Shown here one piece after another: positions 1 through 55,878 of a stretch of DNA of 64,000 nt (within the stretch, counting starts at the first letter, position 1; the number at the start of each line of letters is the position of its first letter). Origin of the DNA: Ehretia macrophylla (Eukaryota; Streptophyta; Magnoliopsida; Boraginales; Ehretiaceae). The notes beneath the pieces are model-generated. The model searched no databases and was not told the DNA's origin. It worked only from the letters and a program-made list of their open reading frames with translations. Both the position numbers and the translations under genes were made by a program. Location: positions 9,870,501-9,934,500 of the forward strand of contig CM075770.1 of assembly GCA_037974665.1 (NCBI GenBank), in the 5' to 3' direction.

Positions 1-351
1 GTGCGGTAGCAAATTTGAACCAGAATGCCCAGGCGTGAGGTACTCAATATTGCCATACATGGAAAATGAAAGTCTATGTATTTTGCATTACATTCAATAA
101 ATCAGATGATGTATATCTCGCTTATGACTGTATGCAAATAAACTAGATAGAATTTACTCTTCTTTTTTTTTTCTAATTCTCATGGGTTGTACTACTTAAT
201 GTTCGAAGGAGACAAACTTTTTTTTTTTTTTGGGTCAAAAGGAGACAAACGAGACTAAGTACTGCAAGATTGTAGCCATGCTCTTTGTTATAGGTAAACT
301 ATGTTGCCTACTCACCTTACTTTGTAACACAAGGTACTTTGGTTTCAATAC
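1..351. other. left flank, no gene seen
   Basis: AT-rich DNA with no convincing coding region. It holds the micro-insertion at 218-238 and ends in the AATAC target-site copy (347-351) of the first copia element. Confidence 0.6.
218..238 (-). mobile_element. micro-retroposon insertion (TTGACCC + A14)
   Basis: Read on the minus strand, 7 nt of tag (TTGACCC) are followed by 14 A. The insert is flanked by a perfect 12-bp direct repeat, AAGGAGACAAAC, at 206-217 and 239-250. A duplication flanking an A-tailed insert is the mark of target-primed reverse transcription, so I read this as a LINE or SINE copy truncated almost to its tail. Five similar inserts occur in the window. Confidence 0.65.
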
Positions 352-675
352 TCTTGTAAAAGTATAGATATTTATTAACAACAAATTTTGTCAGAAATAA
401 TACGTTGTATGACAATTGTCACCCGAGAGAAGAACTCAAGACAACGTTGAGTTGCAGAAGCTACGCGAACGTTTGTCAGATATCTATGTAAAGTGTAAAA
501 GTTTATATTAGTTTATTTAAAGGTGTAATCATTATATTCTTATAATGATTATAGTTTGTCCTATATTTGTTATATAAATATGAGAAGAGAAAATCCATGA
601 ATAAGAATCAAAAAGAAGCAAGCATACGATACATTATCTTAGTTAAGTTGTTTACATTGTTATTATTTCATAACA
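352..675 (+). repeat. 5' LTR of copia 1
   Basis: 324 bp, homologous to 6403-6744. It begins TC where the right copy begins TG, so the first dinucleotide has mutated. It ends in ACA, directly before the primer-binding site. It lacks a roughly 30-bp segment (AGAGAATTTGGAATTG and following bases) present in the 3' LTR. Confidence 0.9.
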
Positions 676-677
676 CG

Positions 678-690
678 TTATCAACATGAG
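678..690 (+). promoter_or_regulatory. primer-binding site of copia 1
   Basis: TTATCAACATGAG lies two bases after the 5' LTR. It resembles the TATCAGCACGAG-like site used by many plant copia elements, with small changes. The match is by position and similarity only. Confidence 0.55.
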
Positions 691-830
691 ACTTTGTCAT
701 AACAACAAAACACAGGTAGTTTGATCATTCTACTTCGACCCTTAGAAAGTTTGATATTAGGTACATCTAATTCTTCTCATTTCAATTATATCCTTATTAT
801 TGTTTTTAGATCAAAGCATTATATTATCAC

Positions 831-895
831 ACACACACACACATATATATATTTATATCCATATTTACTATTATATATTTATATATATAATTATA
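831..895. repeat. (AC)n/(AT)n microsatellite in copia 1 leader
   Basis: A run of alternating CA passes into TA-rich repeats inside the untranslated leader of copia 1. Confidence 0.8.
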
Positions 896-1029
896 GATCA
901 CCAGTTATATATTTGGTGAATCTAATATTACAGAAAATATATATAACCTGGAAAGATTATGGACTATAAAGAATCCATGGAAAACCCTTGCTCAAATTTA
1001 CAGTTTTGGACATAAATAATTTTAATCCT

Positions 1030-1240
1030 CAGATGATTTATTTATTTACGTTATTGCATCTAACTTTAATTTTCGTTATTTATTTACGTATTTACGTTAT
1101 TGCATCTAACTTTAATTTTCATTATTCATTTACGTATTTAAGTTATTGCATCTAACTTTAATTTTCATTATTTATTTACGTATTTTCGTTGTTGCATCTA
1201 ACTTTAATTTTTGTTATTTATTTATGAATTTACGGTATTT
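1030..1240 (+). repeat. 46-bp tandem repeat in copia 1 leader
   Basis: The phrase GCATCTAACTTTAATTTT recurs at 1056, 1102, 1148 and 1194, an exact 46-bp period over four units, decaying after about 1240. It lies between the PBS and the gag start at 1401. Its function, if any, is unknown. Confidence 0.9.
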
Positions 1241-1400
1241 TAATTTTCGTTTTGTATTTACGAATTTACGTCATTCACTAACTTTAAATTGCTTAATTTA
1301 TTTCTTACAATTTATGTACTTTATTTATTTAAGTCTAGAAGTTAACAATTTAATTATATCTCTATTGACTAAATTTTATTTGATATCTTTTAGTATCATC

Positions 1401-4400
1401 ATGTCAAATCTTACAAAGCTCGAGTTTTCTACCCTTGACATTACGGGTAATAATTATTTATCATGGATAGAGGATGTTGATGTATACCTACAAGCCAAAG
1501 GTCTTGAACAGACCATAGTTGAGGGCAAGACAGAATCCCCGCAAGATCGTGCTAAAGCAATGATATTTATTAGCCATCATATACATGAAGCATTAAAGGC
1601 AGAATATCTTACTGTTAAGGATCCACATGATTTGTGGGTAAATTTGAAATAAAGATATGATCATCAAAAGGAAGTAATCTTCCCAATGCAGTGCCACAAG
1701 TGTATACACCTCAGGCTGTAGGATTTCGCTAACGTTCGAGAGTATACTCCACAGTGCATAATATTACTGCACAATTAAAAATGTGCAGAGAAAAGATCAC
1801 AGAAGAAGACATGCTAGAAAAGACATATTCCATATTCCACGCCTCAAATATAATATTGCAACAGCAATACAGAGAGCGTGGCTTTAAAAGACATTCTAAT
1901 CTGATAGCATGTCTCCTAGTGGCGAAGCAAAACAATGCATTGTTAATGAAGAACCACCACTCACGACCACCAGGCTCTAAACCATTGTCTGAGGCAAATG
2001 TTATAGAGTTTAATAATCATGATCGTGGTTGAGGCCGTGGTCATGGTTGTGATCAAGGTTGTGGTCGCGGTCGCGGTCGTGGTTATGGTTGTGGACGAGG
2101 CCGTGGAGGTGGTCGTGGTTATAATAACAGTTGGCATAATGATGCTCGTGAAGGTGGTAATAATCACACCTGACACTATATGGTTCAAAAGGCTTTGATT
2201 TTAAGAGGCAAGAAAACTACGACAAGGGGAGTGGGAGTGGTTCACAAAAGAAATCATCTCAAGAAAATATATGTTTTAGATGTGGCATGTCAGGCCATTG
2301 GTGGAAAACTTGTCGTACAGTACAACATCTTGCGGACCTTTACGAAGCCTCAAAGAAGAGTAAAGGAAAAAGGGTTGAGATGAATTTGGTTGAACATGAT
2401 GAAAATAATACTTAACAACAAAATACACACTTCAATTATTCTAGTTTCTATGAAGACAATAATGAAGGGAGTGAACATGCATATGCCTGATGATGCAAAA
2501 ACTTCATTTTGACTGAACTATTATATACTATCTTGTTAGATATTATCTGTAAACCTTGTAATATTGTCTTATTTTCGTCATATTTCAATTAAAGTACGAA
2601 TATATGTTTATCAGTTTAAAAATAATATTATCATGTATCATTTCCTCTGCTTACAGTTTCTCACATATGTTATTTATTTTATCTTGAAGAAATATGGATC
2701 TATATAATATCAATGATGGAGAAATATATCTGGCATACAGTGCAACGACACATATGATTATTAGAAATAGAATCTATTTCTTTCAACTCAAATTAGCGGA
2801 AGCAAATGTTAATACAATCGCTGGCACTACAAATCTCATTAATGGCTCTGGAAGAGCTTGTATTATGCTTTCTGGTGGGACAAAAATTATGATAAGCAAT
2901 GCTTTATATTCTTGTAGATCCCAGAGAAATCTATTGAGTTTTAGAGATATACGAGAAAATGGTTATCATATTCAAACCATGAATGAGCAAAGTAAATAAT
3001 ATCTCTATATTACATCGCTCAAAACTGACAAGCAAGTTATAGTAGAAAAATTGTCACCATTATCCTCAGGAGTATATTATACTAGGATAAATCATGTGGA
3101 ATCTAATATGATGATAAATCAAAAGATGCTTGATCCACAAAGTTTTATCCTTTGGCATGATCGCCTTGGATATCCAGGTGCAATGATGATGAAAAGAATT
3201 ATTGAAAATTCAAATGGGCACTCATTAAAGCATCGAAAGATTCTATCATCACATGAATTTTCATGTCCTGCTTGCACCCAAGGAAAATTGATCAATATGC
3301 CATCCCTTACAAAAATTGATATTGAAACTCCTGCTTTTTTGGACAGGATACAAGGGGATATATGTGGGCCTATTATTCTGTCATGTGGACCATTTCGATA
3401 TTTTATACTATTGATAGATGCATCAAAAAAATGGTCATATATATGCCTACTATTAACTAGAAATATGGCATTTGCAAGACTTCTTGCATAAATAATCCGG
3501 TTACGGGCCCAGTTTCCGGATTATACAATCAAGTGAATTCGTCTTGATGATGCAGGAGAATTTACATCACAATCATTTAATGATTATTGCATGTCAATTG
3601 GAATTATTGTTGAGCATCTTGTAGCTTACACCCATACACAAAATGGTTTAGCTGAATCATTTATTAAACGATTGCAGCTTATTGCTAGACCATTATTGAT
3701 GAGAACTAAGTTGCCTAGTTCTGTATGCAGACATGCAATATTACATGCTGCATCATTGCTTAGAGCAAGACCAACTGCTTATCATAAATACTTCCTATTA
3801 CAATTGGTTTATGGTCAAGAACCAAATATATCCCATTTGAAAATTTTTGGTTGCGCAGTTTATATTCCAATTGCTCCACCACTGTGCACAAAAAAGGGAC
3901 CTCAAAGAAGACTGAGAATTTATGTTAGTTTTGAATCTCCATCAATTTTGAAATATTGTTGATTGCCAATTATGAGACAACATTCCCAGTCTTATGGGGA
4001 GAAAAACAGAAGCTGGAAAATAATGCATTATTATGGAATGCATCATCAGTATCATATTTTGATCCTTGCACGAATCAATTTGAAATAGAAATTCAGAAAA
4101 TTATACATTTGCAAAATATTACAAATCAATTGCCAGATGCTTTTGCTGATGCCAAGAAATTGACTAAGTCACACATATCAGCTTTAAATGCCCCAGTGAG
4201 AATTGATATTGCAAAGAAACAATTTGCTGACACAGTAAGAAATGAGTCTATGGCATGTTAAAAACGTGGTAGACCAATCGGTTCCAAAGATAAAAATCCT
4301 CAAAAGAGAAAGGGGCAAAATGAGCAAGTTGGAAATATTGTTCTTGAAGATCCTGTAGATGTCACAATGCAAGAAATAACTGAAAATAAAGTTTCAGTGG

Positions 4401-6180
4401 AAAATCAAGTACCTGAGAATGAAATAAAAGGCGACAATATTGACAATGATGAAATCTCAATTAATCATGTCTCTACAAGACAAAGATGGAATCGAAATGA
4501 AATCATTATTGATGAAAAATTTGTATATGCAGTAGCTACTAATTTAATGATAGAAAGCGAGAATCTTGAACCGAAGTCCGTTCAAGAATGTCGATGAAGA
4601 AATGATTGGCCAAAATAGAAAGACGCGATTAATGTTGAATTGCAATCACTTGAAAAACGCGAAGTGTTTGGTCCAGTGGTTCAAACACTTGCAAATGTGA
4701 AACATGTTGGCTATAAATGGGTATTTGTGCGAAAACACAATGAAAATAATGAAGTTGTAAGATAGAAAGCCCAACTTGTAGCACAAGGTTTTTCACAAAG
4801 ACTTGGAATTGATTATGAGGAGACGTATTCTCCAGTGATGGATGCAATTACATTCAGGTATCTAATTAGTCTGGCAATTTCTAAAGGACTTCATATGCGT
4901 CTTATGGATGTGGTAACAGCCTATCTATATGGATCACTTGATAGTGATATTTATATGAGAGTCCCTGAACGACTAAATATGCCTGAGGCATATGGCTCAA
5001 AACCCTGGGAGATGTATTCAATCAAATTACAAAGATCTTTGTATGGACTAAAACAATCTAGACGAATGTAGTACAATCGTCTTAGTACATATCTTCTAAA
5101 GGAAGGATATGTTAATAGTCCTATAAGTCCATGTGTCTTTATCAGAAAATCGAAATGTGATTTTGTCATTATTGTTGTTTATGTTGATGATGTAAACATT
5201 ATAGGAACTCGTTAGGAGCTTACAGCAGTAGCCACATATATGAGTAAAGAATTTGAGATGAAAGATCTAGGTAAAACAAAGTTTTGTCTTGGCCTACAAA
5301 TTGAACATTTGACAGGTGGAATTAAGTTGCACCAATCAACTTATACAGTGAAGGTGTTGAAGAGGTTCAAGATGGACAAAGCTCATCCAGTAATTAGTCC
5401 AATGGTTGCTCGAACTCTGGATATAGAAAATGATCCATTTCGACCTCAAGCAGTGACAATGATGAAATCTTTGGTTCTGAAGTGTCATATCTTAGTGTCA
5501 TTGGTGCATTAATATATCTCGCTAATAATACATGACCAGATATTGCATTATCTGTTAATCTATTAGCAAGATTCAATTCAGCACCAACACGGAGACATTG
5601 GACCGGCATTAAATATATTTTTCGCTATCTTCATGGAACTACTGATATGGGGTTACTATATTCAAGACATCCGCAACCAGAGTTGATTGGATATGCAGAT
5701 GCTGGATATTTGTCTAATCCACATAAAGGGCGATCTCAAACTGGATATTTATTCACATATGGTGGTACTGCTATATCTTGGAGATCTACAAAACAAACTC
5801 TTGCTGCTACTTCATCAAATCATGCCGAGATACTTGCACTTCATGAGGCAAGTCGAGAATGTGTTTGGTTGAGATATTTGATCCAACACATTGAGGGAGA
5901 ATGCAATCTTTTAACAAGCAAAAGTAGCCCCACTATTTTATATGAAGATAATGCTGCATGCATTGCCCAAATACAGGGAGGTTATATTAAGGGTGATAGA
6001 ACTAAACATATCTAGCCAAAGTTCTTATTTACTCATGAGCTTCAAAAGAATGGTGAAATCGAGGTTCGTTAGATTCGTTCAAATGAGAACCTTGCTGATT
6101 TGTTTATAAAATCATTGCCTACTAGTACATTCAAGAAGTTAATATGGAAGATTGGTATGCGGCGACTCCGTAATCATTCT
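1401..6180 (+). pseudogene. degenerate gag-pol of copia 1
   Basis: Gag opens at 1401 (MSNLTKLEF, a common copia gag start) and is stopped at 1650. A Gly/Arg-rich stretch (2030-2160) precedes a CCHC zinc knuckle (CFRCGMSGHWWKTC, about 2275-2316). A protease-like segment (about 2694-2999), the integrase zinc region (WHDRLGYPG at about 3150) and an integrase core remnant (3540-3960) follow. Reverse transcriptase runs from about 4630 to 5520, with YVDD near 5180 intact in one frame. RNase H (5640-6015) keeps GYADAGY and YEDNAA. Frames change several times, a piece is missing near 3960, and more than ten in-frame stops are present. No functional protein can be made. Confidence 0.92.
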
Positions 6181-6402
6181 TGAGATGCCCACGAGGGGGA
6201 GACATATGCATTGCACTCTTTTTCCCTTCGTACAGGTTTTGTCCCATTGGGTTTTCCTAACAAGGTTTTTAATGAGGCAGTATAAAAGACATACACAAAG
6301 AATTTTGTACTCTTTTTTCTTAGTCAAGTTTTTATCCCATTGCATTTTCTTGATAAGGTTTTAATGAGGCACATTATTAAGCAATAAATATCCAAGGGGG
6401 AG

Positions 6403-6744
6403 TGTTGTAAAGGTATGGATATTTATTGACAACAAATTATGTCAGAAGTAATACGTTGTATAACAATTGTCACCCGAGAGAAGAACTCAAGACGACGTTG
6501 AGTTGCAGAAGCTACGTGAACGTCTGTTAGAGAATTTGGAATTGAATTCTCTAATATCTATGCAGTTTATATTAGTTTATTTAAAGGTGTAATCATTACA
6601 TTATGTTCTTATAATGATTATAGTTTGTCCTATATTTGTTGTATAAATATGAGAAGAGAAAATCCGTGAATAAGAATCAGAAAGAAGCAAGCATACGATA
6701 TATTCTTTCTGTTAAGTTGTTTACATTGTTATTATTTCACAACA
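6403..6744 (+). repeat. 3' LTR of copia 1
   Basis: 342 bp, starts TG and ends CA. The purine tract AAGGGGGAG lies directly upstream (about 6394-6402) and the AATAC duplication directly downstream. Confidence 0.9.
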
Positions 6745-17500: not shown

Positions 17501-18666
17501 CCCATAAGAAAGATAACAACCATTTCACTTGTTGTTGAATCTTAATGATGCAGTAAAGTCAAATAGAAAATGCTTGAGTCAGTCCACATTGATCGTTAAT
17601 CTCTCACATTGCCAGCAGCACTCATATGTGTGGGGTTAGGATTTTTTTTTTTTTTGGTCGAATGGGGTTAGGATTGATTGAAGTGTTTCCCAATTCGTTC
17701 GTATTCAATTAAGTTTATGATTTCTAAACTCAGATTATCTCTCACTTGAAACTTATCATTATTGGTGTTGACAGATATCTTGACAAAGCTGCTATAAAAA
17801 CACCAGAAGATCAAATCAAACCAGATGGATCACCTGCCAATCCATGGAGACTATGCACAATGCAGCAAGTGGAAGAAGCCAAATGTGTGGTGAGAGTAAT
17901 ACCAGTGTGGGCTGCGGCTATTGTGTACCATGTTGCATTCATTCAACAACAACAATATGCAGTCTTCCAAGCACTTCAATCAGACAGACACCTTGGTAAA
18001 ACGTTTCAGATACCGGCTGCATCTTACACGATCTTCTCCATGTTGAGCCTTACTCTCTTCGTGCCATTATATGACCGTGTGATAGTTCCATATCTACGCA
18101 AGTTAACAGGCAAAGAAGAGGGCATAACGCTCCTTCAAAGAATGGGCATTGGTATAGTCCTTGTAGTAGTATCATCGCTCGTGTCTGCCTTTGTTGAAGA
18201 GAGAAGGATAACGTTGGCGCTCACACATCCAATGCTTCATTCGAATAAAGGCGCTGTTTCATCCATGTCAGCTTTATGGTTGGTTCCTCAGATTTCTATT
18301 GCCGGTCTGTCTGAGGCATTCACTGGCATTGGCCAAGTCGAATTCTACTATAAGCAGTTGCCAGAAAATATGAGGAGCTTTGCAGGCGCTTTACTTTTCT
18401 GTGGCATGGCAGCATCAAGCTATTTGAACAGTTTGTTGATCTCCATAGTACATCAAGCAACTGAAGGCGCCGCGACAGGCAATTGGTTGCCGGAAGATCT
18501 CAATAAGGGGAAATTGGATTACTTTTATTTCCTGATTACTGCGCTCGGGGTCTTAAACGTTGTATACTTTCTGCTATGTGCCAGGTGGTACAGGTACAAA
18601 GGAATTGCACTGACAAGCTCTACAGCGCAAACTGAAATGAAGAAGCTCGACAAACATGTCGTTTGA
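14547..18666 (+). CDS. NRT1/PTR family (NPF) proton-coupled transporter
   Basis: Four exons join in frame with GT-AG borders: 14547-14658, 15112-15329, 16614-17176 and 17775-18666, giving 594 residues, the usual NPF length and exon pattern. The protein is a PTR2/POT-family major facilitator with about 12 membrane segments, expected to carry nitrate, peptides, hormones or glucosides with protons; the substrate cannot be read from sequence. The proton-coupling ExxEK motif is intact at residues 40-44 (ETFEK). [28 protein letters not shown] and LDYFYFL are family landmarks, and the overall wording is closest to NPF subfamily 2. The start chosen is the first ATG after the putative UTR intron; Met10 is an alternative. 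Intron 2 carries a foldback repeat and a SINE tail, and intron 3 a micro-insertion. The relic at 7501-13155 is its tandem copy. Confidence 0.95.
15607..16204. repeat. foldback-like repeat in NPF intron 2, with 72-bp tandem units
   Basis: Three units starting with ATAGGG at 15607, 15679 and 15751 have an exact 72-bp period, and a fourth decayed unit lies near 15960. The right edge (CACTTAAATAATTTATCCTA, ending about 16203) is the inverted counterpart of the unit start. The block may therefore be a palindromic foldback element like those at 38143 and 50054. No clear target duplication was seen. Confidence 0.6.
16543..16587 (-). mobile_element. 5'-truncated SINE tail in NPF intron 2
   Basis: The minus strand reads TGTTGTACGGTTTAGACC..., then AATT and an A-run, matching the 3' end of the SINE at 41472-41615. 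A perfect 9-bp duplication, ATTGTAATT, flanks it (16534-16542 and 16588-16596). It sits only 17 nt from the acceptor of exon 3, so it lies in the branch-point/polypyrimidine zone. Confidence 0.7.
17644..17662 (-). mobile_element. micro-retroposon insertion in NPF intron 3
   Basis: The minus strand reads TTCGACC plus 12 A. A perfect 13-bp duplication, TGGGGTTAGGATT, lies at 17631-17643 and 17663-17675. Confidence 0.7.
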
Positions 18667-20724: not shown

Positions 20725-23700
20725 TCAAACCGTGTATGATTGCTGAATCGTGTCTATGTCGAGTCCCTTCAGTCTCACCACTGATTCAACATGACCTTTC
20801 AATGTGTGTAGCTCACGTAATCTGCCACCAGATATGAAATCAAATTGTATTAAAAACGTAACTTTGTGGTTTTCAAAGGTGAAGAGAACAGTCACGAGCG
20901 TGGTAAATGCCATTAATGTGAAATGTGTAATCAACCAAATATGAAAATGTACTCAGAGTGTAGCTTTGTGATTTTCACAGGGGACAAGAAAATCACTACA
21001 AAGTCCAAAACTTATCCAGAATTAACAAGCATCTAACATAAGAAATACTATCTATGCAGGCAAAAAAGTGGCCCGTATCAACAAAAGGAAAGATAATCAA
21101 ACAAATAGATCTTTTGGCGTCGTACGTAATTATGATCCATGGACCTTGTGGTAATTTAGTACAGGTATTCATCAACATAAACCAAATAACTCAATCAAGG
21201 AAAAGCAGACTGCTCATTAAAGACAAATTTTCTTACCTTGCAATTTCAGCTCTTCGTTTGGCTTCCTCAGCCAACTGATTGAGCTCAGTGAAATTGGTAG
21301 TTTCACTAAACAATTTAGTGTCGGGCACTTGCAGTCCATGGAGAGTTCTTTGTGCATGAGCCCATTGAAGCTCGCGATGTTCCTTCCCAAAATCTTTTTG
21401 CCTCGTGAATGCAATCTGCAAACAAAGCTACCATTAATGACAGAAAAGAGAGGCATTAATTAAAAAAGAGTTGCATATCTCAGCATAATATGTACCCTTT
21501 GCTCAAGAACAAGATCCCATGCTCGCCCACTAAGAGCATAGCGGATGAAGAACTTTATCAAATCAAGCGGGATGTAGCAAACTATATTATAAAGCCAAAT
21601 CACCCCAGCCCATCCCCATCCAATTCCTTCAATAGCAGCAAAACTCCAATTTGCATACACCGCAATTAAAGTAGCAACCTGCAAAATTAAAGCAGTCAGG
21701 TAATTCACAGACTTGACCAAAAAAAAAAAGGTAATTCACAGACAAGGGATTTCCTTGGAAAGAAATTTTGCAGAGATGAATAGATAAATGGCTCACCAGT
21801 TGAGCAATCAGAAAAGCCACTACAAGCAGCAATCCTGGACGTTCAACAAATGACCAACTTCGGGACCTTGTAACAAAAATCAGGGCCTGGCTGATAATGC
21901 TCACTTGAAGGTATATCGCGGAAGCAAGCTTTCTGAAGTCATCATGAGCAGTTTTCTCGAGCGTTGAAACCCCAAATACTTTCTGGCAGTTAGCAATGGA
22001 ATTAGTCAAGTTATAAACTACACGGGGGGAAAATCCAAATGCAACACTGAGTAGTGTAACATTTAATGCATGCAACAAGTTTATCTAGCATAAATAAAGT
22101 AAATGCAAGACATGTATGGGAGTTATGAGGAATTCTATGTTATGAAAATTAAAGTTTTCTTGTTTGGCACAGAAAACCAAGAACTTAGAATGAGGTTTGC
22201 CAAAAAATATTGGCCAATTCATAAAATTAGATTTGCACAAGTCAAAGAGATAGAATCTAATATAACTACAGTCAAAACGACTCCATCTTCCAGAAAATCA
22301 TTAAACATTAAAAAGGTCTACTTACTGGAAAGAAGTCTGTTTTATATGCTGCCCAAAAGAATATGACCGTCATCATTGCCAAGTAACTTCCAAGAACAAC
22401 TCCCGTTGTAAAGATCTCAGCTAGCTTCCAGCTGTCTGGCAGAGGAGATGGCTTCACCCTATCCTTCGATATTGTCATAATGGTACCTGAAATCATTTTA
22501 GCTGCTTGTAAGCAATCAAGGAGAAGAAAGAATAGGTCATTCTACAAGTTCTCAATAAGATGAAAGAGTTCAGTCATTAACTATGCCCATTGTAGCACAA
22601 GACATAGGATTTAGGAGCTTGCTAAAAGGACTTAACGCTTCATATCATTTGAAGTATTGCCATTATATTTAACTTATCAAAAGCTGAAATAGAACGGAAA
22701 GAGAGAAGATGTTATTATCCCTTTCTGTTCTATCAGGAGTTCAGAAAAATTCTTCAAGTCAAGAGCAAACATACACCTATACCGAAGAAATGTGTACACA
22801 CATTTTCTTTTGTATGTTTAAAAGAGCAGTCTTTGGGTTGATTTAAGAGAAGGAAGGACTAACCATCATTAAGGATTGCAATGATAAGCACCATAAAAGG
22901 TGGAAAGTCAAATTTCCAGATCAGCGCCAGCAGCATAAATCCAAGCTGCCATATTTAGAAGTCGGAAAAAGTGCAAAAGGTGTGAACAATTCTCATAAAC
23001 ATTCATCAAAAAACAAGGAGACAAAATAGAAAAGAATGAAAAGAATAACAAAAGAGGGAACACAACTTACCACAATACGAATTGTGATAGAAACTGCATA
23101 GATCTGCCAAAATAGAAAAATTATCAGGCATGAGGTCCAACAAAATGATGTTAATGTGATAGTTAAATAACTAACCAAAAGATGTAGAACTTCACTATGA
23201 TTGATGACAACCATTAATGGTAATACACAATCAGCGGGAACAAGTTTTACCGTATAATTTTTCATCCTCTGAAAGATTGCACGGCTGGTCAATACAGCAC
23301 TAATGATAACACTCAAACCAGGCTCAGTAAGGACAATGTCAGAAGCACTACGAGCCGCATCAGTTGCATCAGCAACAGCAATCCCTATATCAGCCTTCTT
23401 CAAAGCAGGAGCATCGTTGACTCCATCACCAGTCATTCCACAGATATGTTTCCTGGCTTGCAGACGCTTGACTATCTCATACTTGTGCTCTAGGAAAATC
23501 AAACAAGAGTTGGACAATATATGCAATCAATGAATATATTGTCGAAGAAACCAATCATAAACTAACAACCCAACAAACAAGGAACTAAGAATACAAACCA
23601 GGGAAAACGCCAGCAAAACCATCAGCTTTCTCTATGAGTTCATCAATTGGTAGAGCAGCAATTGACTCATCCTTGTCCTGTCCCAACAAAGCAGATGAAG

Positions 23701-28905: not shown

Positions 28906-31900
28906 TTAACTTGTTCTCGCCGTGTTTGACTTAACTAGTCTACCATATGACCATATAATTGCAGCAACCAATGATAGTACATTTTACTTAAGCAAGTATT
29001 TTTTATATGTATACTGTCCTAGTAGTTTATAATTTGTTGTGGACTAATATGTTGGCACAAAAGCAGGAAAGATTAAGTAGTATTTATTTTTCTTCCTTTT
29101 TTAAGACTTAGTCAATGGAGCTATTGACTTAAAGACATGATTTTGTTAAGCTAAGATTATGCAAATTAGAGCTCACTACAAGAAGTTCATAGCTAATAGT
29201 GGAATATGACAAGCTTTCTTCTAATTATATCCTAAGATCCCAAACATATGTTTTAAGAAACATGCATTGATTTCATGTAGGACCCCCCAAAAAAAACTCA
29301 TAGATCGATGCTAATCATTTTAAAAAGATTTATCCCTCGTCAATCATCTTAATTATATTGTTACGTTAAAATCTAATCTAAAATTTTGCTAGTTATTGTA
29401 AAATTAAAATTTTCTCGCAAGTTAATCTTTTATTATCTTCTCGTTCTATATTGTGTTTGTCTTTATCTTGTAGTAATCATTTACATCATCCTAGGTCTAA
29501 AGATGTTGTGAACAATTTCATGAAAAAGAAAATTCAATGTGGTCAAGTGGTTTTCAAGCCTCTTGAAAACGATTATGCTCAGAAAGGTTTGAGCTTATGT
29601 GCAAATTGCATAAGTAACTTAAAAAGGCCTTATTTGCTAGCTAATATTCATTTTATTCACTTTTTGAACATCGCTTTCTTTAGGATTCTTCAATAAAAGG
29701 GAAAAAGAAAATGTTTAGTTTGGAATATATAGGCACAAATAGAATCGATGAGAGAATCGTATGTAATTTGTAATTTTTTTATCAAAGGTTTTGAGATATT
29801 TTGCACAGTACCATATATGATATATATTTGGAAATCATCACAAAGCAAAGAACTTCAATGTAAGGATTTTTTTTTTTTTTAAAAAAAAAAAAACCCCTTC
29901 AACGTAAGGATATTTGGTATCATTAAAAACAATAAACAAATATAATAAACCTCTTTAATAGCTGAAACTTTAAATGAGGTAATAATTTAATACGTTATCA
30001 AAGCCACATTACTAAAGGGTGTGTATTTAAGCCTGTCACCCATTTAAAAATCAAAATGAAAAAAACTTCCAGAATGAATCTCGCCTGTAAGTAAGAGAAC
30101 GTGTTGAGAATAATATACAAATGTAATAGACACTTCTCTAATAATTTGAGTTTTTAGATGAAATAATAATTTAATAGTTAGTTACCCATAATTCTCGAAT
30201 TTTATCTATATAAATAGAATTGTGCAATCATATTTAAAAGCTTTCTTTGCTTTTTCATATTGAAGTCACTTTACAAGCAAAAAGCTGTTAGATTTAAAGA
30301 ATTTGTTTAAAATCTCTACATATAAAAAATAAAATAAAAAAATTGTTGGAGTTAGTCTTACAGATTTTATTTTCTGTGCTTTTTCTTTTGAGCAAGTAAA
30401 GCTAACAACATTGAATATTTGAATTCATTATGGGGTTATCACAATGTCATGACATTCAGTGATGACTTGGTTCCCTCAATCACAGCTTCTTTTTTTTTTT
30501 TTTGTCTCAGCCAACGACATTTGTTTCTACTTTTATGAACTGTTTCTTATATTTTGAACAAAAAAAAACAAAAAAGAAAGAATTGTTTCCTATTCTACAA
30601 TATAATCCAATTATTCAGATTCCATGTCTTACGTTACGTCATATGATTAATTGGCCCCAAACTCCTAGATCTTAGCCAAGTTTCGATGATCTATTGGTCA
30701 TCCACACAGCTAGAAAAGCTAAAGTTGGTCTAATATTAATAGCTTTTAATAGCTTTCAATTCTACATTTAGGATGTAAGAAATTCGAAGGCTACATAAAG
30801 AATAAGTTGTTTCACATGCTATAGAATGCAAACATCTACGACGGTGTCCATTATCTCTGATGATATGTATATAATAGTAATGAGTCGCTTTTCAGTTAGT
30901 GAGTCAAATTGTATAGCATTAAATATGAGACTTGTAAAATTCATCATTCCTCTCGCAGCTAAGGGATTGAATAATTTTTCAATATTAATTGCTAGTCTAG
31001 TCTACTACATCATGCATATGGTGAAGAGAGGGTCTGGTCCAACTGTGTTATCATTTGATTTTAAAAAGAAAAAAAAAAATTTGATGAAAGGGTTTTCTAG
31101 ACTTTAAGTAATAAGCGGATTTTTAAAAATTGAATTACAAAAAAAAGTGAGAGTAGCCTCGATTGAAAATTAATAAGATGTGGATAAGAATTATTTGGAT
31201 GGTTTGGATCATATTGGTAAAAACACTTGTTATAAGTTATGAAAGTATATATAGAAGTTGTATATTATAAGAAACGCGATAAAAAATTTAAAATGAGTTG
31301 AATGGAGACACGCAAATTATATTTCGTGTTAATAAAGCTAGCACACGAGATCCTTTCGACTCATTAAATTTATATAACCAATTCATCTAATGAGAAAATA
31401 TTTGATTTAATTTGTTTTAATTTAATACATAGTCTTGTGGATGTGTATGCAGATTCTAAATGTGGCCTACCACGTTATCCTCATAACTCACTACCCCACG
31501 AACACTTAATAGTCTTCACCTGTCAACAACAGTAATCTTTTGTATTCAAGAGTCATATATTCAATACACGAGTCTTTGCATATAGTGCATGATTGGTACA
31601 AGTCCCAAAAATACATCCAACATTATTGTAAGAAAAAGGTTCTAATAATTTAATTGAATAAATTTCCTATGAGTTTTACAAAAATAAGCTTTAGACAGAA
31701 ACTTTATTCCTCATAATTATGCTGAAACTTCTGTCATTAATTAATTGGAATGCTAATTATAGATTGTTTACAAAAATGAGTTTCAAGGACAAGCACCAGG
31801 GCTAGCTGTTCTCTCTTTAGTTGGAAATATTTGTTCCTTTCCCAACATTGTTACATAAGCTTTAGCAGACAACATTTTAATTAGGATTAGTTTCACTTTA

Positions 31901-33557: not shown

Positions 33558-35291
33558 GGCTCTTGATGGGAGAAGTCATTTTTGGAGGAGAAACTAAGGG
33601 CATTTTGACAATTTTCTTTTATACAGTCTTCTTCCATAAACTCAGAAGATTAATTACATATTAAACTTCCAAAATTTTAAATTTTTTTTGTTTTAAATTA
33701 TGACAACGAGACTATAACACAAGATAATTTAATAACTTAGCTCTAATATCATATTAAATTTTCACCTCATTTAAAAATTTAACTGTTAAAAATCACACAG
33801 AAGGAATATATTAGCTTGGCATGCTGCTAGAATATCAATTGTGGAACATGGGTTCATAAATGAATCTTCTGCTTGGGATGAACCATGTTTCTGAATTTTC
33901 TATGATACTAAGTGGGGCATATAGAATTAAAAAAATTTACTTTTTGCAAACTGTAAGTTGAACACATTTGACATCATTGTGCAAAACAAGTTCCTCAACA
34001 TCACATGGAAGTTCAGAGAAAAGAGTAAAGAGTATAATATATATAATATAACCTAAGTGGGCTATCAAATGGGGTCAGAGTATACTTCTTGATTTTTCAA
34101 ACATTTAAAGTAAGAAAATGAAAGACGTTTACCTATACAAAAAATTAAATTAAATATATTTTATTGTCTAAACAATATATAAAAGCTCCTATTTAAGTAA
34201 AATATGTATTATTTAGGAATAGCCTAAAAAGTAAAGAGAAAAAAAATATTATATGATTTGAAAAGGAAAAACATGCACATTCTTATATATCACGAACAAA
34301 CACAGACATTCATCTTTCTCACATAGGGGGCGTTTAGTTCACAAATTGATTTTTCATTCATATAAATGATATTCCTAGGAATGCTAAGAATGTGATTAAA
34401 ATTGTTTGGTACGTTAAAAATATTTCTAAGAATATTTTATCAAATTCGTATGAATTATTTTTTGTTATGTTTGGTTAGACTCAATATTTCTAGGAATCTT
34501 GAACAATTTTTCAATAATACACATAACTCAAAAAAATAAAAATATCATCAAACGTTCGTGTACAAATAACAATACATTTTGTATACTTTGCTAATACGCG
34601 AGCAAAAAAATATTTAACGTATTTATACAAGTAAAGTAATTTTTTTTTATGTTTCTAAATTTTAACTTTATACTTAAAAAATTAGAAACTTAAATTTATT
34701 ATTTTAAAAAAATTTTAAACTTTAAAATTTATTTTATTTTATTTTGATTTTTATTTTATTTATTTCATTTTATTTATTTTTTAGTTTTTATTTTATTTTT
34801 TTTTACTTTTATTTTATTTTATTCTTATTAATTTTATCTTATTTTTTTAATTTATTTTTTAATTATATCTTATTTTTATTTTTTATTTTATTTTATCTTA
34901 TTTTTATTTTATTTTATTTTATTTATATTTTATATTTTTTTATCTTATTTTATATTTTTAATATTTTTATTTTTTGTTCTTTTTTTTTTTTTTTTTTTTT
35001 TTTGTATCATGTTATTTTATTTAGTTTAATTCTGCTTTTTTTAATATGGTATTTGTGTCTTTTGTTTTTTCCAAAATATTCTCACAACTTGGGAATAAAA
35101 TTTCGTTTTAACTTTTATAGTCCCTAAAAATTTAAGATTATATAATGCTAATCCCTAAAACATTGGAATGTACAACTATTTTGAGTCGATTCTATTTTTC
35201 TAGAAGTGTTGAACAATAGTTAAAAAAAGAAAATGTACGTAGAAAAAGAAAAAGAGAAAAAGAAAATGTATGTAGAAATTTGTCTTGATTA
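33558..35291. other. gene desert with a possible MITE end
   Basis: No gene is seen. GGGGGCGTTTAGTTCAC at about 34326 looks like a MITE terminus, but no matching right end was found. Confidence 0.4.
34725..35005. repeat. TTTTA-rich low-complexity tract
   Basis: About 280 bp are almost entirely A and T, built from TTTTA/TTTTTA units, ending in a run of about 24 T. A long apparent reading frame across it is a composition artefact. Confidence 0.9.
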
Positions 35292-36096: not shown

Positions 36097-38142
36097 AAAT
36101 TTAGGATTCTTATGCCGGAGAGTTCATATTTGGGATTTGTCTTTTTAGGCTCTGATTGGTTTGCTTAAAAAAACAACTATTTTGTAAAGTACATCACAAG
36201 AAAAAAAAACTCGTGCTACGCATATTTAGTCACAAAAAAAGTTGGTTAATGTACAAATTACATATCAGTTGTTAGTATAATTATTATATAGTAGAGAATT
36301 ATTTATATATATATATATATATATGATGTTTTGACGCAGAAGACAGATAATGAATATTTGTAATTTCATTTAACTGAAGATTGGGAAAGATTTTTTTTTT
36401 TTTTTTGTCAAATTGTGAAAGATATTGAAAAGTAATAAATGTCACATACATGAAATATATTTTATGGTAATGAAGACGGTCAACACTGGTAATTTGAAGG
36501 GGAAAAAATAGCGAATGAAGATTAGATGGTAGACTTTCTCGTGACACACTTGTATGATCATAATATATAATCCTTTCTAAAATAAAAAGAAATAGGTATC
36601 AATAAATTGCTAAAACAATAATATAGTTTTTGAGTCAATATTCAGCCATATTTTAAACTAGATTTCAATAGAATGAGAATAAGAGAAATATATTAGACAG
36701 AATTAAACATAACACAAAAAACTAAACGAAAAGATAAGAGAGTTGTTAAAATGTTTCCAAACCATGGGCAAATGCTCATTCACAATGAAAACCATCACTT
36801 TGAAGAGTCTCTGAGTAATGATAAATTAAATAAGCTTTCTCATAAATCTATTTCAGTATAATGCAATTGGAAAGTGCATATTGTATTTAGTGTTTCCCTT
36901 CTTTTTAAAATTTTTTGAGGATGCTAGCGCTAAAGATAATTAAAGCATGCGTTAAAGATAATTAAAGCATGCGTTAAAGATATACATCAATCACATAAGG
37001 TTATTAAAGTCTAGTATATCCTCCCATTAGAAATTTAAAACTACTATAATAACATAATTTTCGAGAGATATATACATAATTAAGAAAACAACATTGTAAG
37101 AGATAGAAAGTCTAAGATAATAAGAGAGCACAGAGTTATAAGTTTGCCCATAGTTAAATGTGCTCAAGTACACGCTAATATTGTTCAAACACCAATTTTC
37201 AATATCCGTTGTACCTTAAAAAAAGGCACACGTTAGACTTGTCACCAAAAGTTAGTGTATGGTGTACGTTATGTTAATTTAAATTCAAATATTACAAGAT
37301 CTACCTTAAGATGCAGCTAATCTAACAATTTTCAAATTGATGTAATCTACAAACGTATCACTACATGTGACAAAAAGATGTTCTATCTTCTCTGAACTTT
37401 CGATTGGCAGTAAATCTTATTGATAAAGCTAGCATTTGTTGCAGAGAATTTTCCTAGTCATCTCTTTAGAGGTGGGCAGTACATAGCTAAACTTTTTAGA
37501 CATCACATTCAATAAAATTCGAAGAAGAGTCTTACCGGAAAACATGGGTTTTTTTTTTTATTTTCCTAATAACAAAATACATGTAAGGACAATTGAATCC
37601 ATTTTTACTTTATAAACTCTGTAGTGTACAATTGTTCGTCACAATACATGTTTTAATTTAATTAAAAACTAAATAATATTTATGATAAAAATATATATAT
37701 TTAAACTCAATATCTTAATTATAATAAATTACTATCCAACCGTTTCATTTAAATCTCGGGGAAAAGAAAAAACATTATGATTGTCCCGTGCAAAAAACAA
37801 AATCATGCTGGCAGAACAGCAAAGGAATCAAGAATATCAAATCATTTGTGGATAACTTTAGATGGGAATGCATAGAATGGTGTGAGGAAAAGTGAGTGTG
37901 TAAGGAGACACCAGCCATGTGGGCACATGTACCCAATCAGTAAACAAATGTATTGGCTGACTTTTGCTATGACCATTGTCCATAGTCCATAGGGCCAAAC
38001 AAACAAAATAAATCACTTCACATGAGATCTGTCCCCTTCCCCAACCAAGGTACTTCCGTACTATGCCGTAACACCTCATAGTTTTCGATAGTGTTGGATT
38101 ATCATTACAATATTCACAAATCCAAAAAACAAAAAAAAAAAA
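36097..38142. other. gene desert with simple repeats
   Basis: No gene is seen. A 22-bp unit (TAAAGATAATTAAAGCATGC plus GT) is repeated at 36931 and 36953, and a TA microsatellite lies at about 36303-36324. Confidence 0.5.
36392..36413 (-). mobile_element. micro-retroposon insertion, intergenic
   Basis: The minus strand reads ATTTGAC plus about 15 A, between TGGGAAAGAT (36382-36391) and TGTGAAAGAT (36414-36423), 9 of 10 identical. Confidence 0.55.
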
Positions 38143-41615: not shown

Positions 41616-41626
41616 AAGTGCACTTT

Positions 41627-47802: not shown

Positions 47803-50053
47803 CTTGCATCAATCACTGTGTGTTGTGTGTGTGAGAGTGTGTATATATATGTATGTATGTATGTATAGGTTTGGGGGGTTGACGAAGGAGATGAAGGGGA
47901 AGGAAAGGGAGGGAAGATCATACAGTTCAAGAGAGAATCTTGATTTTCTATTTTTGAAATTTTTTGGAAATGAAAAGTCAGACGTGTTGATGTGTAAGGA
48001 GGGTTTGACAAAAAAAAAAAAAAGATGTGTAAGGAGGGGGATGCAAAAAGGACGTGGAATTGGGAAGATCTTGTGGGGCCCTCTCCGGGGTAGTGATATG
48101 GGTCGTCTTTTAATCTGACCATAATATTTTGATATTATAAGGAAAATTTTAATAATTATGTATTGTTGATGTATATATAATAAAATAATATTAATAGTTT
48201 ATAACTATTAAATTTTATTAATAGTGTTATAATATTATGAAATAATTTACACCCATGTTTATGGAAGTAGAAAAAGACATAAATTTTAAAAAAAACAGTG
48301 AATTATATGCATGTACTAGTGACACATGTTACATCGTATTTATCAAAGATCAACTGTGTTGTTTGAATAAACCAAATGAAAAAAAAAAAAAATTTGATAT
48401 AGAATTATGTCACACTAGACTTTTTTTTTTTTGCTTATTTTTTGTTTCAACTCATAACTCTTTAGCGATAATCAGTATTTTAATATAACTTTTTGTTCAA
48501 ATTATATATCATATGAAAGTATTTAAAAATTATTACTACATAAATATTTGCATTATGAAAATACTTAAAAATAAACAAGTTGTCATTAGCTTAAGCAAAG
48601 TATCATAAAGCGACCCATGAATTCTTCCGAGTAAGCTGATAAAACAGTGTTTGTAAAAATATTTAGTTTGATCAGAAAGAAATTAAAGCTTTTAAGATTA
48701 ATTACGCGAAAGTGGAGTATTTAGATGTTAAGAGGAATTGTATAGCCTTTCTTTTTGTCTCTCACTTTGTAAAATATCGATTATTGAACCATAACCATTA
48801 TTTTTTTTCTTTTTTTTTGGGAGGGGGGAAAACAACATTAGTGGTTGTTGATTTAAAAGATATTTTGAATGGAAAGAAACAAGTGCATTGATTAAGGATT
48901 TGATGCATTTGATGTCTTGATTTTTACTACTAGTAAGTAACAATCATCATAACACAAGATTTTTTTTTTTTTTTCTCTTCTTGGAAATCTTGTTAATATA
49001 CAAAGCATTAATGTCAGTAGATTAATGTATTACTCATTGAGTTTTTCAATATCAAGAACTATAGGAAAGATGGTCCTGAGCTAAAGAATTGCGGACTATG
49101 ATGGCAGTAGATTAACGTTAATTTTTCTTGACTGCATTGGTTATACACATGTTTATTTTTGCCCAAAAAAAAAAAAATTGGAGTAGAAGTTTGACTGTTC
49201 TTAATAGATAGTTGCATCTAGAGAAAGAGAAAGGAGATAAGAGGGACCAGGAAATGCATACAAGTCAATGCTCAGTGGTCATTGTCTAATGCCCTTGATC
49301 TTCCAAATGTCGTCTCCTTTTTTTTAAATTATTTTTATCATATTAGAGATATCATAAGATTATAAATTATGTAGTACAGTGATGCACATTTGTCACATTA
49401 GAACTCAAGGTAATACCACATTAGATCCTTGATTTGCCACCTCCGACATACAACTACGTTATATTCACCTCAAGATTATATGTCTTGTAGTTCAGCGATA
49501 ATTCATAACATATATTTCAAGTGACCAGACAATATATATGATGGGATAACTGAACTCAACACCTTTGGTCTCAACAAATTGTCACTGGACCGTAACACGA
49601 ATATAATATAGGCTGAAATCATTATTTGAATTCAAGAACTTTAATTTATAATATATTATTATCTGACCATTCTACTGAACTCTTGAATAAATAACAGTTC
49701 TCTAATATTTATTATCTTCAAAGTTTTTTGATCTTTAGAGAATTCTAATTGACAGCTATTTTTAAATTATTCATTAGGTGGGTGGGTGACTAAAATTTTA
49801 TCTTTTAATCAAGAAAAAACACTATCGTTAAGAGAGAAATCTAATCATGATAATTACTTGTAAACTTGTCGCTTTCAATTTATAAATAAGGACTACGAGC
49901 TTTTATATCTGTATTGGGCCTTGTGATGTGGACTTCGTAACTGTAAGGCTGAATTGAGAAGTCGGAATGGTCACATTTGTGGAAAAAAAAAAATTGTACC
50001 TAACAAACGATTATTTGGCCTCTAAAATAAAAAGTATGTCTCACATTTATTTA
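47803..50053. other. upstream region of DnaJ gene and intergenic
   Basis: Presumed promoter (a GTATGTAT microsatellite lies at about 47843-47870), then AT-rich DNA with homopolymer runs. No other gene is seen. Confidence 0.5.
48004..48023 (+). mobile_element. micro-retroposon insertion upstream of DnaJ gene
   Basis: TTTGAC plus 14 A between two perfect 15-bp copies of GATGTGTAAGGAGGG (47989-48003 and 48024-48038). It lies about 200 bp upstream of the DnaJ start codon, in the promoter region. Confidence 0.75.
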
Positions 50054-50745
50054 GGGTCAAAAGCATTTTAGTTTTTGAAGTTTACTCTAAAGATTAAATT
50101 GGTCCTTCAAGTTTGTAAAAAGACCAAAAGGTCCCTCTAGTTAACTTTTGTTAGCCAAATATTAATAGTCAAATGGTTGACTGAGTTAAAAAACCATTAT
50201 ATTCTTAGGCAACATATATTATAAAAAAAAATTACAATAAAAGTCTAAATCAGTCTAAAAAAACATAATTCACATAATTCGCGTAAGAAAAAAAAAAAAA
50301 AAACTAAAAAATAACAATTCAAACATAAACAAAATAAAAATAGTAATAAATCGTTAAAAAAAAGAACAATCATAATTTATTCTCTTTTTTGGGCAGTACT
50401 CTCGCCGTTAATTATGTCGATGATGATTGTTTTTTTTTTAACGATATATTACTGAATTTAATTTATTTATGTTTGAATTGATATTTTTTAGTTTTAGTTT
50501 TTTTTTTTTCTTGCACAAATGTTGTGAATTATGTTTTTTTAGACTGATTTAAACTTTTATCGTAATTTTCTTTTATAATATATGTTGCCTAAGGATATAA
50601 TGGTATTTTAATTCAGTCAATCTTTTGACTATTAACATTTGACTAATAAAAATTAATTAGAGGGACTAATTTGATCTTTTTACAAATTTGAGGGACCAAT
50701 TTAATTTTTAGAGCAAACTTCAGGGACTAAAATAATTTTTGCCCC
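50054..50745. mobile_element. 692-bp foldback element with 9-bp duplication
   Basis: The ends GGGTCAAAAGCATTTTAG and CTAAAATAATTTTTGCCCC are inverted. The arms pair almost to the centre, where CGTTAAAAAAAAGAACAATC meets GATTGTTTTTTTTTTAACG around a short loop near 50380-50430. A perfect ATTTATTTA lies on both sides (50045-50053 and 50746-50754). Nine-base duplications are typical of Mutator-like elements, so this is best called a MULE-type foldback/MITE. It has no coding capacity. Confidence 0.8.
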
Positions 50746-50754
50746 ATTTATTTA

Positions 50755-52740: not shown

Positions 52741-52887
52741 GAGTAATGTTAGATGTTATCATATTTTTATCACTTAAATATCACCTTTTACGTGTATACT
52801 TAGTTGACACGGTAACTTAAGAACTAGACATAAACATAAAATGTGATATTTGAGTGATAAAAATATGGTGACATCTATTCATTACTC
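52741..52887. mobile_element. 147-bp hairpin MITE
   Basis: The ends GAGTAATGTTAGATGTTATC and GACATCTATTCATTACTC are inverted, and the arms pair for about 45 bp. TTTTAGCTC (52732-52740) and TTTTAACTC (52888-52896) form an 8-of-9 duplication, suggesting a Mutator-like origin. Confidence 0.75.
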
Positions 52888-52896
52888 TTTTAACTC

Positions 52897-53425
52897 TTTA
52901 GTTAAAATAGGGACTTGAAATGCATTTTGTCCTCTCCAACAAGTTTTCTATTTCACTCCCTATTTGGGCCGACTCTCGTTCTTCTCGTTTCACCCCTTAC
53001 ATTTGGAGAAAGAGAATAGTTTCCTATCCCACTTCCCATCAATTTTATATTATCTTTTTTTTTTAACTCAAAATTATATTTTAACTTTATGCACAAGGTT
53101 TTCAATAAAAAGTAATTTTTATATATTAATATTAAGAACATGATGATTAATCTATAATACTATTTTAGCATTTCGATTTTTTTTCTTTTGCTTTAACATG
53201 GTGGAAAGAATATGACTGTTGAATTTAATCATTAGAAATAATAACCTCTATAATAAGAAAAAGATAGGGACAACTTAGAATTGGCCTTAGATCCATTAGG
53301 AATTAAACATAAAGAAGAGAAGAAGGAAGAGAAAGAGGAGCTTAATCCTCCCAAGCCCTAATTTTACAGTGTGTGGTGTAAAAGCACCTGCCCTTCAATA
53401 CACAGAGTGATCTTGAGCAAACAAA
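52897..53425. other. intergenic
   Basis: No gene or element is recognised here. Confidence 0.5.
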
Positions 53426-53855
53426 GGCTCCGTTTGTTTGCCGTAAAATATTTTACACATTTTCTGGTATTTGGTAGGATATAAAATTTGGTCAAATGTA
53501 AAATATTTTTCAGTCAATAATTGCGACTGCTTTTGCTTAATTTTATTGTATTTGGTAATAGCAGAAAATTGGTCAACTGTAAAATATTTTACAGTCAATA
53601 ATTACAGCTAGTACAAAGTTTTGTAAAATATTTTCATGTTTTTTAGGAGAAAAAAATATTTTACGGAACTCACTGTTCATTCAAATACCAGAAAATATTT
53701 TTCAGTATTCTATTTTCCAGAAAAATATTTTCTCCTAACAAGTTATTTTACGGCAAACAAACAGAGACAAATAAAATATTTTATTTTTCAATAAAACATT
53801 TTTCACTGAAAACATTTTCTATGAGCAAGTTATTTTACAGCAAACAAACAGAGCC
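53426..53855. mobile_element. MITE, GGCTCCGTTTGTTT family, copy 2
   Basis: 430 bp with well-kept inverted ends GGCTCCGTTTGTTTGCCG and CAGCAAACAAACAGAGCC, flanked by AAA on both sides. It is homologous to copy 1 at 28475. Superfamily is uncertain. Confidence 0.8.
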
Positions 53856-54502
53856 AAAGTAACAATTGGAAATCATATAACCACTAGAGGCATTAAAACT
53901 ATATTTGGATCCACTTTTTTAAAGGAGCTCTTGTTTGGATTCATTTTTGTATGAGGGGAAAGTAAATCGAGAGATTAAACAATTAATTAGGGGATTGCAA
54001 GGATTGAACAATCCTCCGTAATTTTTAATTAGAGGAGTTTGCAATCCCATAATTTGGGATTTTATGAACGGAAATAAAAGATTGATGAGTATGGTTTTAA
54101 TTGTCCCAAATATTTTTACATATTCTAAATATATCTTTAACATAATAATTAACATGGAAACATATTTAAGTAATTTTTTATTTAAAATTATTCTTGATTT
54201 CTTCAATTGAAATGAAAAACCTTGGTCATTTAATTTCTTTTACCTTTCTGTTCTTTTACAATTCAAACGAAAGACCCCATTCATTTCGTTTTCTAGGAAA
54301 TTATCATATTTCATAGAGGGAATTAATCATTCTATTGTAGTCAAATTCATCCTAGGAAATTCTTTTTCTTTTTTTTTGCCTAGCAAAAAAAAATTTATCC
54401 TACACCGTTCCTTATTGGAAACTATAGCGCTAAAGAGAAAAAAAATAAATATAAATAAATGTGCCAACACAAACAATTTGCCCATAGGGGCGCAATAAAT
54501 AA

Positions 54503-54546
<44 letters not shown>

Positions 54547-55856
54547 TATATATTAAAAAAAGACAAAGAACCTTTACTAGGTTGCAGCTATTAAGTTTCC
54601 TATATCATCTTCTTTTCTTTCCTTCCCCTGGCGAATCCAAACATGGTATAAGAGTATGAATTACGACAGACAACAATTTTTTTTTTTTTTGGTGAAACGA
54701 CAGTCTTCATTTCAAGTCTTTCTCACGTTTTTTTTTTTTTTGGCTAATTAAGTAAGATTTCCATTAGAATTAAAATAATTGAGCAAGATTTTCATTAGAA
54801 TTAAAACACAACAAAAAAATGTACAATTAGCTGTACAACAAGATGGAGCATCTATCTAATGATTATCTCATCCACGTTTCATGCGATGCAAATTGTCTAA
54901 TTCAAAAGAATATTTTATATATTGTTTGGAAAAAATCAATTCCATAAATTTTTTGTTGAATTCATTTGTAAATCCAATTACTTGTGTTTAGAAGCACTTT
55001 TTAAAATTAAAAAATAAATAATAATTAAAGTGCCTCTAAGTCTTCTTTTATTTTTCACTGCTCATATTATTTCGCTCTCATTCCCTATGTAGTTAATTTT
55101 TCTTATTCTTGTTATGAGTTTCTTCACAGCGAATTTCTTTTTTGTATTTCTTAATCCAATCTTATTTTTCTCTTTGAATTAAAAGTCCAAATCATGACTT
55201 GATTAATCGTCCATTCTTATTTTTAAGTAATCTTTGCATACTTAGTCATCTAAAATTATAAATTATTTATTCGTATTATTTATTCATCGATACTAATTGA
55301 TTAAGTTTAATTTTAAAATTGCGTAGTGCTATTAATCAATTAGTACATATTTGTGTAAAAGTTTAAAAAAATAGAGCTACAAGATATAGGGGCTGAAAAG
55401 GAATATCTAAAATATACATATTTACAAATCACAAACTTAGCTTAATATTATTTTACAGTTTCAAATAAGAGAATTTATTTATAAATATAAATTATTATGA
55501 AATTCGTTTATAAATGAATTCCACACCACAAGTGATTCCAAACACTCTGCTTAATCTTTCCAAACATGTACGTTTGAACTTTACATCAAATTGAATATTT
55601 GTATTTATCCCAAAAAAATTATATATTTTTAAATAATTGATCTTTAGTAAGGGCTTCATCACTATTAGTACAAAAAGTTTTTCCACATTTCATGTTTTTC
55701 ATGTTATTTTCTAGTGGACTTGACAAAGTTTGGACCCTCCCAATACTTGAAGTGGCTAAATTTCTTTCTACTATTATCATCCAACCAAAAAATAGCTGGC
55801 AATATCTCATCAAGATCTTTTTCTAAATTCTTCTTCCTTTTGAATCTCATTATTCC
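53856..55856. other. gene desert
   Basis: No gene is seen. It holds long A and T runs and the TA microsatellite at 54507-54541. Confidence 0.5.
54507..54541. repeat. (TA)n microsatellite
   Basis: An unbroken alternation of T and A over about 35 bp. Confidence 0.95.
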
Positions 55857-55878
55857 TATGACCAAAAAAAAAAAAAAT
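55857..55878 (+). mobile_element. micro-retroposon insertion, intergenic
   Basis: TATGACC plus 14 A (then T) between TCATTATTCC (55847-55856) and TCATTGTTCC (55879-55888), 9 of 10 identical. It lies 20 bp left of the hAT-like element. Confidence 0.6.

Follow-up and report, generated by a model that had tools for sequence, protein, structure and literature searches.

A stretch of 64,000 nt from the Ehretia macrophylla genome (assembly GCA_037974665.1, contig CM075770.1, positions 9,870,501–9,934,500), hereafter the window, carries six micro-inserts of 16–22 bp, each made of a short tag with the core GAC, GACC or GACCC followed by an A-tail, and each placed between direct repeats. These inserts are most likely ultra-short 5'-truncated copies of L1-clade long interspersed nuclear elements (LINEs), in which copying stopped about 7 nt past the A-tail. 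The first-pass annotation had ascribed them to target-primed reverse transcription (TPRT) by LINE machinery; genome-wide enrichment of the tags, duplications in excess of controls and longer LINE copies that carry the tag support this reading.

Three inserts lie on the forward strand and three on the reverse strand. The reverse-strand inserts are TTGACCC-A14 at 218–238, with exact 12-bp duplications at 206–217 and 239–250; TTCGACC-A12 at 17644–17662, with 13-bp duplications at 17631–17643 and 17663–17675; and ATTTGAC-A15 at 36392–36413, with 10-bp duplications that differ by one mismatch (whole unit 36382–36423). The forward-strand inserts are TTGACC-A10 at 21713–21728, with 15-bp duplications at 21698–21712 and 21729–21743; TTTGAC-A14 at 48004–48023, with 15-bp duplications at 47989–48003 and 48024–48038; and TATGACC-A14-T at 55857–55878, with 10-bp duplications that again differ by one mismatch (whole unit 55847–55888). 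The positions, tags of 6–7 nt and tails of 10–15 A described in the annotation were all recovered, as were its duplication lengths of 12, 13, 15, 10, 15 and 10 bp, four of them perfect and two with a single mismatch. When the duplication is read with the A-run last, its bases −2/−1 are TC in five of the six inserts and TT in one, the insert at 36392–36413 being read with its longer duplication; the probability by dinucleotide frequency is 3.6e-6, uncorrected and for a motif chosen after looking. The opposite side has no shared bases by eye, and no paralogous empty sites of the inserts were found within the window.

A-runs are common in this AT-rich window, and the repeats beside them might be accidental. 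The controls reduce the probability of this explanation to almost nil. Among 133 A-runs of at least 7 nt scanned on both strands, six matches score at least 12, and these include all four perfect inserts; the other two are an AT-rich repeat at 34844–34858 and a run at 29872–29896. Swapping the downstream flanks between the 133 runs gives 0.3 matches on average and never more than 3. A scan for short-spaced exact repeats, blind to A-runs, returns 41 pairs, the four perfect inserts among them, compared with 0–9 pairs on shuffles. Runs of at least eight A after GAC, GACC or GACCC occur seven times in the window, and six of them have a duplication (score at least 8); the seventh is GAGAC-A14 at 30490–30503. 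In 100 order-5 Markov shuffles such runs average 2.04, and those that have a duplication 0.02, so that the combination of tag and repeat is far rarer in shuffled sequence than the six cases observed, the comparison on which the annotation had staked its claim. Its claim of high density also holds for exact GACCA10, with three occurrences in the window against a genome mean of about 0.33 per 64 kb (8,263 in 1.58 Gb). On the shuffles and swapped flanks in the window, and on the controls of the TTTGACCA8 and GACCA10 samples described below, a chance origin of the inserts was rejected.

The same patterns are strongly enriched across the host genome (1.58 Gb, 20 contigs) when counts are compared with those of the reversed pattern. 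TTTGACCA8 occurs 3,261 times against 34, GACCA10 8,263 against 822, TTCGACCA10 833 against 13, TTTGACA12 1,176 against 98, TGACA12 3,272 against 733, and TTAGCCA10 975 against 30. Sites for the TTTGACC, GACC, TTAGCC and TTCGACC samples were taken from one contig (C1), save most of 12 extra loci. The 100 TTTGACCA8 sites that we read (88 of 100 listed and 12 chosen for tails of at least 21 A) comprise 65 independent sites as judged by the downstream flank. A duplication within 40 nt scores at least 9 in 29 of these 65, two of the 29 having 36-nt tags, and at least 12 in 22; ten rounds of swapped flanks give 0–2 sites (mean 0.7) at the lower threshold and none at the higher. The first 57 listed GACCA10 runs represent 51 independent sites, of which 24 score at least 9, compared with 1.6% of 250 controls. 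For TTCGACC, 11 of 20 sites reach this score, one with a 23-nt tag, in a sample taken without a control. The genome scan proposed in the annotation thus finds the tagged A-runs enriched, with duplications above controls in the TTTGACCA8 and GACCA10 samples. At one locus (L167:60-150) the target is present in three copies with two successive stub tails, ATTGACCC-A9 and ATTGACC-A10. On contig C1, the first 100 listed sites each of TTTGACCA8, GACCA10, TTAGCCA10 and TGACA12 leave the regions of about 14–25 Mb and 32–43 Mb nearly empty, and these gaps may be pericentromeric.

Target sites were compared in a pooled set, made up of the 68 sites that remain when 182 independent runs are filtered at a score of 10. 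The first base of the duplication is A in 49 of the 68 and the second is A in 49; position −2 is T in 41 and position −1 is T or C in 50. Duplications are most often 15 or 14 bp long, and most fall between 10 and 17 bp. A 3' A-tail, a target duplication of variable length and a preference for T before the duplication and A at its start make up the pattern expected of target-primed reverse transcription by a LINE.

Longer LINE copies that end in the tag, for which the annotation had proposed to look, are present, some of them at TTTGACC sites where no short duplication is seen. At one locus (L043), an insert of 340 bp is flanked by an 11-bp duplication and ends in TTTGACC-A15; its frame is RNase H-like (RVT_3 Pfam match, E 0.015, below cut-off). 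In L091, an RVT_1 match (E 1.7e-6, 28.3 bits against a curated cut-off of 29.6) lies upstream of TTTGACC-A10; a second frame that looks zf-RVT-like by eye has no Pfam match, and an 11-bp AT-rich repeat 3,805 bp upstream forms a weak duplication. L219 and L231 end in TTCGACC and have RNase H-like frames by eye, and they share this end with the window insert at 17644–17662. L134 is 97% like L231 and ends in TTTGACC, from which it follows that one lineage carries both tags. Used as a genome query, the L043 piece gives 41 matches of 71–100% identity, 30 of which reach query position 338–340. We read 23 of those 30 ends, apart from L043 and L099, the 11 shorter matches being left unread; TTGAC adjoins the tail in 19 of the 23, and the GAC-A, GACC-A and GACCC-A forms are found as in the stubs. 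The GACCC form of the insert at 218–238 recurs at the LINE ends L197, L202 and L211, and the GAC form of the insert at 36392–36413 at L203, L207 and L215. The 3' sequences of the inserts therefore match LINEs of the same genome, save that the letters TCC, ATC, ACT and TAT before GACC were matched to no LINE.

Two other origins of the tag were considered. The mRNA-like look of L043 had suggested that a starter RNA was followed by template jumping onto mRNAs; this was dropped, since the RNase H-like frame and the 41 genome matches of L043 mark it as a LINE end. Non-templated addition of the letters before GACC is not needed for TTT, CTT, CTA and TTC, for which templating suffices since LINE ends with these letters exist. 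The annotation had attributed the inserts to one LINE or SINE (short interspersed nuclear element) family. A LINE source stands; a single family does not, because TTTGACC, CTTGACC, CTAGACC, TTCGACC and TTAGCC lineages or variants are present. The constant 5' head with a pol III promoter that would mark a SINE is missing from the window inserts, which are 16–22 bp long, and no constant sequence upstream of the tag was found in the sites read. Among the longer loci, L002 and L012 are 78% identical over 241 bp, and L050 seems similar by eye, with an endonuclease-like start (SWNCQGLG, by eye) and a TTTGACC tail; the insert L095, at the L012 site, measures 1,345 bp, has a 17-bp duplication and is related to L002. 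L002, L012 and L050 are perhaps a non-autonomous LINE family.

The annotation regarded the inserts as copies truncated to their last bases, which agrees with our results, and to this we add a property that it had not noticed, the narrow length of the stub. In the pooled set, where tags were allowed up to 45 nt so that longer stubs would have shown up, 49 of 68 tags measure 5–8 nt (5 nt in 5 sites, 6 nt in 13, 7 nt in 25 and 8 nt in 6), seven are shorter than 5 nt, seven have 9–14 nt and five have 22–45 nt; the set retains a few duplicates (L042/L046, and L167 twice) and probable chance hits (the tags of 22–45 nt, several of which look like chance, as well as L173 and L169). The TTTGACC, TTCGACC and TTAGCC samples preset the tag, and evidence on length comes only from the GACCA10, window and incidental sites. 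Among 29 sites not selected by a 6–7-nt tag (18 GACCA10 loci, four from the window and seven incidental; those of the 57 GACCA10 runs that were also in the TTTGACC sample are omitted), 19 have tags of 5–8 nt with a mode of 7, the choice of GACC itself fixing 4 nt. In sites chosen by GACC alone, the preceding letters include TT, TTC, CC, ACT, CTA, TCC, ATC, ATT, TAT and CTC, and the total length is about 7. Within the 5–8-nt class, tag length is unrelated to A-run length (r 0.07). In three sites with short tags (L025, L001 and L051), the tag and the end of the duplication have letters in common, as would be expected if the true stub were longer and had been joined by microhomology. In the GACC lineages, truncation is concentrated 5–8 nt from the A-tail and its points are not spread over the element, which random truncation does not predict.

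A stop at this point could also be imposed by a hairpin that the RNA forms immediately upstream of the tag. Single LINE ends can be drawn by eye as such a structure (in L212, AATGA-ATT-TCATT), and this is set against the RNAalifold result on 15 of the 23 LINE ends (alignment A2), for which no pair is predicted. A shared hairpin adjoining the tag was therefore set aside as unsupported, and we regard a hairpin-induced stop as very unlikely. Another alignment (A1) had been picked by its tail, and its conserved tail proves nothing.

We propose the following course of events. The LINE endonuclease would nick the bottom strand at a target close to TY|AA, and on this nick the LINE RNA, with an end such as UUUGACC-poly(A), would prime. 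The reverse transcriptase would copy the A-tail and about 7 nt, after which synthesis would end. The short cDNA would be joined to the top strand, and gap filling would leave a target duplication, mostly of 10–17 bp. Both the target-primed step and an end point that the enzyme sets where body and poly(A) meet are what we infer from the inserts; the latter might reflect a failed passage from initiation to elongation, with early second-strand synthesis. More tentatively, and with less than even confidence, we suggest that LINE retrotransposition in this plant has a molecular ruler: the ORF2 protein would hold the 7 nt or so next to the poly(A) junction, and many target-primed events would stop at that distance. 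To our knowledge, what ends reverse transcription and yields 5'-truncated LINE copies is unsettled. In the portion of the literature consulted (PMC7617806), poly(A) RNA stimulates human ORF2p in vitro, and truncated copies are proposed to arise from premature second-strand synthesis.

The template might instead be shortened before it is copied. Here 5'-to-3' decay of the LINE RNA would halt at ORF2 protein bound to the body/poly(A) junction, and the remaining 7 nt or so with the tail would be copied to the end; the stub would be the footprint of the enzyme, with the LINE and TPRT source unchanged. The narrow boundary, the varied letters before GACC and a length unrelated to the tail all fit such a template, and the boundary falls roughly where the TTGACC element common to the LINE ends has its edge, a sharing that is partly due to selection. 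Against this, a ribonucleoprotein that is decayed and yet active is an extra assumption. We consider pre-shortening unlikely, while giving it some weight.

Several observations weigh against truncated L1-clade copies with an enzyme-set end point. The 23 LINE ends were chosen by their match to a query that contains the tag, and the conservation of their tails is partly selection. Among the 30 top zf-RVT LINE loci, an A-tail is present at the expected distance in 18, of which nine end in GCTTAGCC and none in GACC; the best-preserved LINEs are therefore not the source of the tags. A short duplication is not seen in 27 of the 51 GACCA10 sites, and the depletion of A at position −1 of the target comes in part from extending the duplication through A's. 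Tags of 9–14 nt (7 of 68) and 22–45 nt (5 of 68) mean that the ruler is not absolute. In the TTAGCC lineage, five of 20 sites yield stubs of 8, 8, 10, 12 and 13 nt, the last two from one duplicated site, and a further stub in L081 has 13 nt; this lineage is less sharply ruled than the GACC lineages. The 7-nt length itself could come either from early release of the reverse transcriptase or from RNA pre-trimmed to the edge of the enzyme. Finally, copies of one repeat family have, at a shared target (TTTC|AAATAGAATAAAAGT), either a stub or a 340-bp LINE piece, a pattern that would not be expected from simple independent insertion. The stub is found in L042, L044, L046, L048 and L097, and in L047 with a changed left flank; the LINE piece is found in L043, whose right junction is shared by L099 and L174, and the left flank of L098 is of a third kind. 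Reuse of a single nick site, later deletion and gene conversion are each possible for this family. It is also the case that favours an origin of the stubs as scars, left when longer LINE copies lost their bodies by deletion. Such deletions would be expected to leave ragged ends, and the duplication abuts a tag of 5–8 nt in 49 of the 68 pooled sites, which makes deletion scars a highly improbable account of the class.

The window also shows a longer LINE-type insertion, a 5'-truncated, A-tailed L1-type LINE of 430 bp on the forward strand (57160–57589, with its 12-bp duplications 57148–57601). Its RNase H-like C-terminus matches RVT_3 (PF13456, E 2e-8), and its end, CTTCAAG-A11, is not a source of the GACC tags. 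The A-run at 29872–29896 has a 19-bp duplication with two mismatches and no GAC-type tag; on the reverse strand, the region 29867–29896 reads GGGG-T13-A14 between imperfect repeats of 18–19 bp, and this A-tailed insert with an inverted T-run is perhaps a twin-primed event. At 54677–54741, also on the reverse strand, two A14 runs lie 37 bp apart: one follows TTAATTAGCC, which resembles the end of the other LINE lineage, and the other follows TTTCACC and precedes TTGTTG and a short repeat of CTGTCGT. An LTR (long terminal repeat)-like pair (354–538 and 6405–6602, 83%), a short way downstream of the first micro-insert, encloses Copia-like open reading frames (ORFs) at 354–6602. Judged by eye, the insert at 17644–17662 is placed between two ORFs that resemble exons of one transporter gene, and that at 48004–48023 upstream of a DnaJ-like ORF. 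Rfam gave no match in the window.

A stub class that stops within a narrow range close to the poly(A) junction offers a countable signature of an early TPRT step. Extrapolation of the 24/51 rate from contig C1 to about 7,400 sites above control gives some 3,500 recognisable stubs of the GACCA10 form, and the stubs are so short that repeat annotation would not recognise them as LINEs. If the ruler is true, thousands of 7-nt stubs would be fossil traces of where the enzyme sat on its RNA, and they may rank among the commonest LINE products, easily taken for poly(A) noise.

Truncation points of L1 are usually spread along the element, and in this human and chimpanzee L1 differs from the present sites, 19 of 29 of which end 5–8 nt past the tail. 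Human poly(A)-only L1-mediated insertions, in which almost only the tail is inserted, resemble the stubs in this respect; they are known as single events without a constant tag. No title or abstract describing a fixed 7-nt LINE stub was found in the open literature, the search covering neither subscription papers nor preprints. In the consulted part of a study of human and chimpanzee L1 (PMC2912911), 5'-truncated insertions are similar in their A-tail, target duplications and TT/AAAA target; duplications of full-length L1 peak at 14–16 bp, and microhomology occurs at many 5' junctions. Plant L1-clade LINEs (PMC3747384, available sections) have in common with the elements described here the clade, the poly(A) and a conserved short sequence beside the tail. 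The maize and sorghum L1 lineage keeps a stem-loop and CGAG, whereas the present elements end in TTGAC(C) or TTAGCC, with no shared stem predicted on 15 ends; stubs are not mentioned in those sections. Sadhu retroposons of Arabidopsis (PMC2848041, in the excerpts at hand) are alike in their poly(A), duplications of 7–16 bp, 5'-truncated derivatives, and T at the 5' nick with an A run starting the duplication; they differ in their size of about 900 bp, and the same excerpts do not mention a 7-nt class. Set beside these systems, the process is a known one, LINE target-primed reverse transcription with 5' truncation, and the part for which the literature searched gave no precedent is the narrow 7-nt stub class as a large product.

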